From contig DAOWAS010000003.1 of the NCBI GenBank assembly GCA_030634465.1, positions 1 to 43,817 on the forward strand: a stretch of 43,817 nucleotides of DNA, written 5' to 3'. How positions within the stretch are numbered: position 1 is the stretch's first letter; every line of letters begins with the position of its first letter. Below the pieces are notes generated by a model. The model worked only from the letters and a program-made list of their open reading frames with translations. It did not search any database and was not told the DNA's origin. Positions 34,308 to 37,425 of this stretch are shown here, piece after piece. The position numbers and the translations under genes are program-made. The DNA comes from Alphaproteobacteria bacterium. GTDB taxonomy: Bacteria; Pseudomonadota; Alphaproteobacteria; Sphingomonadales; SMXR01.

Positions 34308-34694
34308 CTAGTCTTCTAGTTCACGCAACTCTCTATTAAGTTTAAATTGTTTTGAGGTTAAATAAGCTTCCATATGACGGGTTCTTTTTTCAATGTCGTC
34401 GTACCGTGACTGCATTTCCACCTTGGTATAAGCAGGCTTGGTGCGGGCTTTTTGCCAAAATTTTTCTTCTTCTGGGTCTTCAATAATTTCCTCAGGCTTC
34501 TCTTCCAAAACAAAGCCAAGCAAAAAATAAACAAACACAGTTGGAAAAAGCCCTGTCATGAAAAATGCAACGATAGTTAGCAGTCTGATAATGCCGGGGC
34601 GAATGTCGAAATAATCAGCAACCCCAGCACAAACTCCCATAAAACGACCGTCTTTGGGGTTTTTGTATAATCTGTTTGGATTAAAGGTGTTCAT
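34308..34694 (-). CDS. pspC: PspC domain protein with charged C-terminal extension
   Basis: RLYKNPKDGRFMGVCAGVADYFDIRPGIIRLLTIVAFFMTGLFPTVFVYFLLGFVL. Confidence 0.9.
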   Translation of the reverse strand: MNTFNPNRLYKNPKDGRFMGVCAGVADYFDIRPGIIRLLTIVAFFMTGLFPTVFVYFLLGFVLEEKPEEIIEDPEEEKFWQKARTKPAYTKVEMQSRYDDIEKRTRHMEAYLTSKQFKLNRELRELED

Positions 34695-34908
34695 GACTTT
34701 TGTGTCTCCAATCTGGAACCTCTTCATCAAGAATGCGTTCCATAATCTCTAGCCGCTCTTCTAACGTCTCAGAGTTTTTCTTCAATGTACTAAGCACATC
34801 TTGGTCTTCGGCTGTTATGCCGCCCTGTTTTTTCCAGATAGTTACATAGTGAAGTACAATCCAGAGCGGAACGACTATGACTGCCACTACTATAAAAAAA
34901 CTTTCCAT
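34681..34908 (-). CDS. pspB: Phage shock protein B
   Basis: N-terminal TM, VVPLWIVLHYVTIWKKQ, coiled-coil LEERLEIMERILDEEVPDWR. Confidence 0.88.
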   Translation of the reverse strand: MESFFIVVAVIVVPLWIVLHYVTIWKKQGGITAEDQDVLSTLKKNSETLEERLEIMERILDEEVPDWRHKSHEHL

Positions 34909-34941: not shown

Positions 34942-35160
34942 CTAATAATATGATGCGGTCGGTTTAGGGTCTAATGCCATGCCTAATAGGATATACAAAA
35001 TGGCAGTGGGGAAAAGGCCTGTAATAAGAAATGCTATAATTGCCGCTATTCTAATTTTACCTACACTAAACCCAAAATAATCAGCTAGCCCTGCGCAAAC
35101 TCCATTTATGCGCCCATTTCTGGTGTTTCGATATAGTTTTTTCATTTTAAACCTAGCCAT
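34942..35160 (-). CDS. Short PspC domain protein
   Basis: KLYRNTRNGRINGVCAGLADYFGFSVGKIRIAAIIAFLITGLFPTAILYILLGMALDPKP. Confidence 0.88.
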   Translation of the reverse strand: MARFKMKKLYRNTRNGRINGVCAGLADYFGFSVGKIRIAAIIAFLITGLFPTAILYILLGMALDPKPTASYY

Positions 35161-35187: not shown

Positions 35188-35883
35188 TTACTTAGCTTTT
35201 TTTGGTGCTGTTTTCTTTGCTTCTGTCTTTTTCATTTTAGACTTAAGCGCAGTTAACTCACTTTCAATGGCTTCGTCTGTTTCCAGATCACCAATTTCTT
35301 CTGCTAAAGTGCGGCCTTTACCAAGCTCGTAGCTCTCACTTTCAGCTTCCATGCGGTCCATGCGTTGCTCAACCTTGTCAAAGCGGCCAAAGGCATCTTC
35401 AATGCGGCCATCGTACAAGTTTTTACGAACCCTAAGCTTGTTGGTGGCAGTGCTGTGGCGCGCATTCAATGCGGCTTTTTTTGCTCTGGCTTCGCGTAAT
35501 TTGCCTTCCAGCTTTTGCACATCGTCATCGTGGTGGCTGATAGATTGTTGCAAGTGCTCCAACTCCTCAGACAAGTGCTGTTCCATCTCGGCTACTTTTG
35601 ACTTTTCTATTAAAGCTGCTTTTGCCAAGTCTTCACGACCTTTAGAGATTGCAAGTTCAGCTTTTGCTTCCCAGTCGGCTTGAGCCGCTGTTAAGCGCTT
35701 TAGCTTTCTGGTTATATCCTTCTGGTCGGCAATGGTGCGCGCCGCAGAGGTGCGAACCTCAACTAGGGTGTCTTCCATTTCCTGAATAACCATGCGGATA
35801 ATTTTTTCCGGGTTTTCAGCCTTGTCCAAAATTGAACTAAGTTCTGAATTTACGATGTCTGTTAATCTTGAGAAAATTCCCAT
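35188..35883 (-). CDS. pspA: Phage shock protein A
   Basis: MGIFSRLTDIVNSELSSILDKAENPEKIIRMVIQEMEDTLVEVRTSAARTIADQK, coiled-coil. Confidence 0.95.
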   Translation of the reverse strand: MGIFSRLTDIVNSELSSILDKAENPEKIIRMVIQEMEDTLVEVRTSAARTIADQKDITRKLKRLTAAQADWEAKAELAISKGREDLAKAALIEKSKVAEMEQHLSEELEHLQQSISHHDDDVQKLEGKLREARAKKAALNARHSTATNKLRVRKNLYDGRIEDAFGRFDKVEQRMDRMEAESESYELGKGRTLAEEIGDLETDEAIESELTALKSKMKKTEAKKTAPKKAK

Positions 35884-35994
35884 TTTTTGTTTCCTTGTGT
35901 TTTAGTTCTTGCTGTCGTCACTCAGGCCGGTTGTTTAATAGTTGGCTTGAGAAAGAGTTTGGGAGTGTTTATCACTCCTCTTATTATAATTATG

Positions 35995-36165
35995 TTAGCT
36001 GTTTAGCTGGCCTCTAACCTTGCGGCTGGAATAAAGTACGAAGCTTGGCAGGCTTCTGTATTCAACAACCTTTAAATGGTTTTGCAGGCTAAAAATATTA
36101 TTAGTCAGTAGCTCTGTTTCATCTGTGTCCTGCATTGCCCGACTTAATTTTGATAAGATATTCAT
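35995..36165 (-). CDS. Unannotated 56-aa small protein upstream of pspA
   Basis: ATG at 36165, stop at 35997-35995: MNILSKLSRAMQDTDETELLTNNIFSLQNHLKVVEYRSLPSFVLYSSRKVRGQLNS. Below the length cutoff of the ORF track; lies between the sigma-54 promoter and pspA. Confidence 0.55.
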   Translation of the reverse strand: MNILSKLSRAMQDTDETELLTNNIFSLQNHLKVVEYRSLPSFVLYSSRKVRGQLNS

Positions 36166-36243: not shown

Positions 36244-36259
36244 TGCAACGCCCGTGCCA
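36244..36259 (-). promoter_or_regulatory. Sigma-54 (-24/-12) promoter of the psp operon
   Basis: Minus strand TGGCAC-GGGCG-TTGCA, exact consensus with N5 spacing, 79 bp upstream of the 56-aa ORF and divergent from pspF. Confidence 0.85.
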
Positions 36260-36390: not shown

Positions 36391-37425
36391 GTGTCAAGCG
36401 AAGATCAAATTTCAGCTATTGGTGGCTCCCATGTTTTTCTGGATCTGTTGGATCAGGTGTCAAAAATTGCGGTGTTGGACAGGCCTGTTCTGGTGGTGGG
36501 TGAGCGCGGCACGGGTAAGGAGTTGGTGGCATCACGGTTGCATTTTTTGTCCCGCAGGTGGGACAGGGCTTTTGTTAAAATGAACTGTGCGTCGTTGGCT
36601 GAAAGCCTGATTGAAAGCGAGTTGTTTGGTTACGAGGCCGGTGCCTTTACAGGGGCAACACGCCAACGTGCGGGCAGGTTTGAGGTGGCTGATAACGGCA
36701 CGCTGTTTTTAGATGAGGTGGCTAGCCTTTCAGCATCAGCCCAAGAAAAATTATTGCGTGTGGTTGAGTACGGCGAGTTTGACCGTGTTGGTGGCAACCA
36801 GACAATTTCTGTCGATGTGCGGGTGGTGGCGGCGGCTAATGTTGATTTGCCTGAACTTGCTGACATGGGCGGTTTTCGCCATGACCTGTTGGATCGCTTG
36901 GCGTTTGACGTGCTAACCGTGCCGCCACTGCGTGCCAGACATGGGGATATAATGTTGCTTGCAAATCATTTTGCCACGCGCATGGCTAGTGAATTAGAAT
37001 ATGTATCAAGCCCGATATTTTCAAAAAATGCCGAAGCTGCTTTGCAAGACCACGGTTGGCCGGGTAATGTGCGAGAGTTGAAAAACGTGGTTGAGCGTGC
37101 GGTGTACCGTTGGCCTGATGAAGGCCCTGTGGAAGATATAATTTTTGATCCATTTGACAGCCCGTGGCGGCCTGATGCTGGTGCGGCGTTAGGCGTTTCT
37201 AAAAAGGAAGCGGGGTTTGGTTCACAGCCAGTGAGCCAAGATAAATATAAGCTAATGCCAGATGCCAGACAGCCGCTAGATCTAAAAAAATCATTGCAAA
37301 CAGTGGAAAAAGAGTTGGTAGAAGTTGCGCTTTCCTTTAACAAGTTTAATCAAAGAGATACGGCCAAGCACCTGTCCATGAGTTATGATCAGTTGCGTCA
37401 TATATTAAAAAAGCATGGCCTGTAG
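36391..37425 (+). CDS. pspF: Sigma-54-dependent activator PspF
   Basis: AAA+ motifs GERGTGKELVASRLH, ESELFGYEAGAFTGATRQRAGRFEVADNGTLFLDEV, C-terminal Fis-type HTH; no N-terminal receiver domain. Confidence 0.92.
   Translation: MSSEDQISAIGGSHVFLDLLDQVSKIAVLDRPVLVVGERGTGKELVASRLHFLSRRWDRAFVKMNCASLAESLIESELFGYEAGAFTGATRQRAGRFEVADNGTLFLDEVASLSASAQEKLLRVVEYGEFDRVGGNQTISVDVRVVAAANVDLPELADMGGFRHDLLDRLAFDVLTVPPLRARHGDIMLLANHFATRMASELEYVSSPIFSKNAEAALQDHGWPGNVRELKNVVERAVYRWPDEGPVEDIIFDPFDSPWRPDAGAALGVSKKEAGFGSQPVSQDKYKLMPDARQPLDLKKSLQTVEKELVEVALSFNKFNQRDTAKHLSMSYDQLRHILKKHGL

Follow-up and report, generated by a model that had tools for sequence, protein, structure and literature searches.

A Probably Undescribed Small Protein Encoded between the Sigma-54 Promoter and pspA in One Alphaproteobacterial Order

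In the window, by which we mean the whole 43,817-nucleotide stretch of DNA that was analyzed, the first gene of the psp operon is predicted to encode a 56-aa protein that is probably a real and undescribed accessory part of the membrane-stress (phage shock) response. Small proteins at the same position, 48 to 64 aa long and mostly arginine-tailed, occur in other members of one alphaproteobacterial order, and based on sequence comparison they probably constitute an undescribed family. That the small ORF is a genuine protein-coding gene is well supported by the conservation of its codons in relatives; from its context and composition, we infer that it is translated, that its product associates with the membrane and with PspA, and that it affects the response. 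The Psp response to membrane stress is widespread, and little is known about its parts outside Gammaproteobacteria; a conserved gene in the most promoter-proximal position offers a specific candidate for the tuning of PspA in alphaproteobacteria. The gene was overlooked because it is short and diverges quickly.

The psp locus

The small gene is an intact 56-codon ORF on the minus strand, with ATG at 36165 and TAA at 35997-35995 in the list of translated ORFs; coordinates and translation are exactly those given in the earlier note (Table 1). It has a GGGA-type ribosome-binding site and is present as a single copy in its own genome. The pattern TGGCAC-N5-TTGCW has one exact site in the whole window (chance expectation, 0.14), located upstream of the small ORF at a distance of 94 nt from its ATG. 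This bears out the claim of the earlier note that the ORF lies between a consensus sigma-54 promoter and pspA on the same strand, and a sigma-54 element is also found upstream of the leader gene in relatives. Downstream of the small ORF, the same strand carries pspA-pspC-pspB-pspC, and pspF is encoded on the opposite strand.

Table 1. Features of the psp locus in the window, listed in the order of the operon.
Feature	Position	Strand	Evidence or content
pspF, divergent sigma-54 activator	36391..37425	+	Pfam Sigma54_activat, E = 3e-59; HTH_8
Sigma-54 (-24/-12) promoter of the psp operon, TGGCACGGGCGTTGCA	36244..36259	-	Sole exact match in the window
Small protein gene, 56 aa, first in the psp operon; provisional label "psp leader small protein"	35995..36165	-	ORF, syntenic family, dN/dS in relatives, shuffle test
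Spacer, 111 nt, small ORF to pspA	35884..35994	-	Weak hairpin, then GGCCTGAGTGACGACAGC, then the pspA ribosome-binding site
pspA (PspA/IM30, ESCRT-III family)	35188..35883	-	Pfam PF04012 (PspA_IM30), E = 7e-42
Extra short pspC, 72 aa, between pspA and pspB	34942..35160	-	Pfam PF04024, E = 9e-16
pspB	34681..34908	-	Pfam PF06667, E = 4e-22
pspC, long form	34308..34694	-	Pfam PF04024, E = 2e-15

In the spacer between the small ORF and pspA, the weak hairpin has the form CUCA-A-GCC...GGC-C-UGAG, and GGCCTGAGTGACGACAGC is common to the window and its relatives. No terminator was found between the small ORF and pspA on the minus strand of the window. The short pspC was not found between pspA and pspB in the relatives compared; in genomes of family f8, a short pspC sits at the end of the psp operon instead. 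A further motif, GACAGCGA, is present in 21 of 44 promoter-to-pspA leaders, sometimes in two or three copies, before the small ORF and before pspA.

A syntenic family within the order

A pairwise search of the window protein against 60 relatives returned no significant match, the best relative reaching E = 0.5. This best match is a 57-aa ORF in a genome of the same family (MNILMTLTEAMQ...YLRRRARIRQAA), and it lies exactly between the sigma-54 promoter and pspA. Because it occupied this slot despite its E value, pspA loci were collected from public genomes and from the order, and the promoter-to-pspA interval was read by position in each.

Five families of the order were found to have small proteins of 48 to 64 aa at this position: f1, to which the window belongs (six of the seven pspA-bearing genomes, missing in G001); f2 (1/1 genome); f4, the Kordiimonadaceae (most genomes, missing in L060, L069, and L071); f6, which includes Rhodothalassium (7/7 genomes); and f7 (2/2 genomes). 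The start codon, Shine-Dalgarno sequence, and length of the ORF are conserved across relatives, and its distance to pspA ranges from 34 to >180 nt. L063 and L065 have a shortened ORF of 37 aa, and the C-terminus is altered in L058, L061, L066, L072, L094, and L096, with loss of the basic tail in L058 and L061. In family f8, no such ORF is present in the promoter-pspA interval, and the promoter, where recognized, is mostly ~70 nt from pspA. Homology upstream of pspA in relatives, which the earlier note had named as a check, is thus not significant by pairwise score and is found by position in five families. Given its absence from G001, L060, L069, and L071, the small gene is dispensable for the psp operon.

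A class-wide profile search recovered the window and two short arginine-rich stretches in unrelated families, and nothing else; at the sensitivity reached, the family looks confined to this order.

Evidence for coding

An ATG-initiated ORF of 48 to 65 codons, with a Shine-Dalgarno sequence and located 50 to 175 nt below the promoter, is present in 30 of the 37 leaders of the order that have a recognized promoter, compared with 1.55 expected from dinucleotide shuffles; the related genomes that contribute these leaders are not fully independent, yet they span five families. For the window leader itself, the expectation is 0.005.

The earlier note had also named dN/dS on the ORF as a check, and this revealed purifying selection in the copies of relatives: dN/dS was 0.06 to 0.31 in six non-overlapping pairs with alignable codons, all of them pairs of relatives that exclude the window copy. 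Substitutions at codon positions 1, 2, and 3 numbered 37, 38, and 104, respectively, an excess at the third position with a binomial P of 1e-11. Small stress proteins that are invisible to homology searches can therefore be recovered by fixing the promoter and the neighboring gene and then testing for codon-level selection.

Features of the protein

The family consensus is MNxLxxLxxA...E...(linker)...RRxRRxxRxRR, in which the MNxLxxLxxA start is followed by a helix in the middle in which one acidic position is conserved, then by a linker that varies and often contains proline, and then by the basic tail. In the family alignment (window numbering), M1, R48, and R51 are invariant and R47 is nearly so. 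With the start MNILSKLSRAM and 56 aa, the window copy fits both the family start MN(I/L/K)(L/M)xxLxxA and the family length range, and it comes first among the ORFs that separate the sigma-54 promoter from pspA on the pspA strand, the position by which the family is defined. The family definition also calls for a basic C-terminal helix with at least six arginines; in the window copy this helix is predicted, but the whole protein has four arginines and three lysines, and its basic tail is reduced and degenerate, with both invariant arginines kept.

AlphaFold2 predicted a helix at residues 3-33 and a basic helix at residues 41-55 of the window protein (mean pLDDT, 74), and it predicted the same two-helix plan for a Kordiimonadaceae member (pLDDT, 68). 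A fold search of the PDB with the model of the small protein returned no match, as one would expect of a moderately confident model with two helices. In the window copy, the first 18 residues have a hydrophobic moment of 0.41 (shuffle p = 0.04); many Kordiimonadaceae members are weakly amphipathic at the N-terminus. The protein has no transmembrane segment.

No Pfam or NCBIfam family matches the small protein. Its only Pfam hit was DUF7173 at E = 0.099, far below the cut-off, and the lack of hits to PspA, PspB, or PspC agrees with the earlier note, which did not recognize it as a known Psp component. A phmmer match to complement receptor 1 in the PDB (3e-5 over 32 residues) is probably spurious, as no single stretch passes alone.

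The psp-leader family resembles DUF1127 (PF06568), in that both consist of basic, arginine-rich, helical proteins of ~50 aa, some with an N-terminal amphipathic helix; however, the arginines of the psp-leader family form a C-terminal helix that lacks the second half of DUF1127. Membership was rejected, because the PF06568 model matched 0 of 22 members, hhalign gave a probability of 0.04% between the two families, and no aligned member has a D[IL]G motif following its arginine-rich part. DUF1127 was found in 0 of 16 genomes sampled from this order and in 23 of 58 genomes across the class. DUF1127 proteins include Salmonella YjiS, which is not a sequence relative of the psp-leader protein; it is a 54-aa, arginine-rich protein with an N-terminal amphipathic helix that associates with the inner membrane, PspA was one of the proteins specific to its tagged co-immunoprecipitation, and its interactions were RNA-independent, with no sign of RNA binding found (PMC11707872). 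In Agrobacterium, DUF1127 proteins (SDPs) bind the sensor kinase PhoR (PMC12501420), and Rhodobacter CcaF1 binds RNA (cited in PMC12501420); basic small proteins of such build can therefore act on proteins or on RNA.

Accessory Psp proteins have been described in Gammaproteobacteria (PspD), Actinobacteria (PspM/PspN), and Bacillus (LiaI) (PMC11237479). The psp-leader protein is like these in being small, lineage-specific, and encoded in pspA operons, whereas it is set apart by having neither a transmembrane segment nor a Pfam or NCBIfam match. To our knowledge, they belong to other families, and none is a basic leader protein located between a sigma-54 promoter and pspA. The leader gene is unmentioned in the two comparative genomic surveys of Psp consulted; the literature covered was mostly open-access, so that an earlier report is possible.

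Proposed role

Based on its operon position, we infer that the small protein has a role in membrane stress. We tentatively favor a model in which it is a stress-induced, basic protein that acts at the inner membrane with PspA, tuning PspA assembly or the release of PspF. Membrane damage would free PspF from PspA, the sigma-54 promoter would fire, and the small protein, by virtue of its place in the operon, would be among the first products of the PspF/sigma-54 switch. It would then be a peripheral protein on the cytoplasmic face of the inner membrane, its long N-terminal helix lying on the membrane or packed against a Psp partner and its basic C-terminal helix bound to anionic lipid or to an acidic surface on PspA (or on PspB/PspC). 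Such binding might tune either the assembly of PspA or its release of PspF.

An association with the membrane and PspA is preferred because the family is tied to pspA and because small proteins with a membrane segment occur at this position in unrelated alphaproteobacteria. It is also preferred, on weaker grounds, because residues 145-217 of PspA are net negative (charge -2 to -7, negative in 12/12 proteins counted). The co-purification of YjiS with PspA in Salmonella is a precedent for a link between a small protein and PspA, although that link did not account for the infection phenotype under study (PMC11707872).

Alternative roles

The arginine-rich C-terminal helix might instead bind psp leader hairpins or other RNAs, making the protein an RNA-binding regulator of the translation or stability of the operon; we regard this as unlikely, albeit the best of the alternatives. 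Tails such as RRQRRQARRRR resemble arginine-rich RNA-binding motifs, and CcaF1, itself an arginine-rich alphaproteobacterial protein, offers a parallel. Candidate targets exist in Kordiimonadaceae, where loci L057-L098 carry a hairpin, GUCCyAAAAAAuGGC..GCC(C)GGGAC, ~60-25 nt upstream of pspA and directly before its ribosome-binding site. RNAalifold gave no convincing common fold over the ORF-to-pspA interval, and this one short hairpin was found to be conserved by hand alignment. Its MAFFT alignment was misregistered, and pair changes were judged by eye: GUCC/GGAC changes to GCCC/GGGC in L063 and to UGCC/GGCA in L076, and GGC/GCC changes to GGU/ACC in L063 and to GCC/GGC in L060, all of them compensatory. 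The hairpin persists, however, where the small ORF is lost (L060 and L069), and hairpins are weak or absent in the window's family, although that family keeps the protein. Moreover, the arginine tail of the window copy is poor. A search of the psp leader against Rfam at E values up to 1 returned nothing apart from an unrelated tRNA, ruling out a known RNA element, and the Kordiimonadaceae hairpin likewise has no Rfam match.

Less likely still is a role in feedback regulation, in which the protein would bind to PspF, alone or in complex with PspA, and influence how sigma-54 transcription starts or is shut off. The gene adjoins pspF and would be co-induced with PspA, the known inhibitor of PspF, and feedback from a small protein onto its own inducing regulator is common. 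Examples of such feedback are given in PMC11707872. Against this, the sequence bears no sign of contact with PspF, and family f8 has pspF and pspA without the small protein.

We consider it somewhat more doubtful again that the ORF is a cis-acting leader peptide, with ribosome movement or stalling on it controlling pspA and its product having no function in trans. It is the first ORF in a long leader, its runs of arginine codons could slow ribosomes, and in Kordiimonadaceae (e.g., L073, L098, L067, and L075) a strong, conserved G+C-rich stem-loop, GGCCCGG...CCGGGCC, directly follows its stop codon. This stem-loop lacks a U tract, spacer structure is not conserved across families, and in the window's family no conserved alternative structure or U-tract terminator was found between the ORF and pspA; purifying selection on the residues of the ORF and its variable distance to pspA also argue against a role in cis. 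The earlier note had proposed either a new membrane-stress small protein or a leader peptide. A real, unrecognized small protein is supported by synteny in five families, codon-level selection, a conserved start and Shine-Dalgarno sequence, and the lack of a Pfam or NCBIfam match; the leader peptide is disfavored, given constraint on residues at both ends, the 34 to >180 nt to pspA, and the lack of a conserved attenuator in the window's family.

Finally, it is very improbable that the ORF is not a gene and arose by chance in the psp 5' untranslated region: it has no significant pairwise homologue outside its own genome and no database family, and it is absent or altered in some relatives, but chance is rejected by the shuffle test and by dN/dS well below 1, and opposed by the third-position excess and the conserved start, Shine-Dalgarno sequence, and length.

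Other small genes at this position

Alphaproteobacterial psp operons may in general have a small gene next to the promoter. It is possible, though we hold this with less confidence than the PspA-associated role above, that the protein encoded first in these operons is generally small, evolves fast, is specific to its lineage, and acts as a partner of PspA in membrane targeting or in regulation. If so, a layer of Psp between PspF and PspA has been missing from view, arginine-tailed in this order and transmembrane or DUF1127-like elsewhere.

In a sample of the class, nine loci (L125, L126, L127, L129, L131, L133, L136, L143, and L145), two of them near-identical, carry ORFs of 46 to 66 aa with a C-terminal hydrophobic segment (xDxWxxFxAGxxxGxF) in the slot between the sigma-54 promoter and pspA. 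The small ORFs of L126 and L127 have dN of 0.13 and dS of 1.05, indicating purifying selection. These ORFs are like the psp-leader family in being the first gene or genes between the promoter and pspA; however, they have a C-terminal membrane segment rather than a basic helix, and no sequence similarity is evident. Locus L127 (family f36) has an additional ORF in the psp-leading slot that is weakly DUF1127-like (E = 0.0035). The slot in family f5 is taken by a different small ORF, which has a hydrophobic segment near its N-terminus (L116, L118, L119, L120, and L122) and no clear selection. L117 has a 162-aa ORF in the slot whose end is TonB_C-like (E = 8e-5, marginally below the Pfam cut-off).
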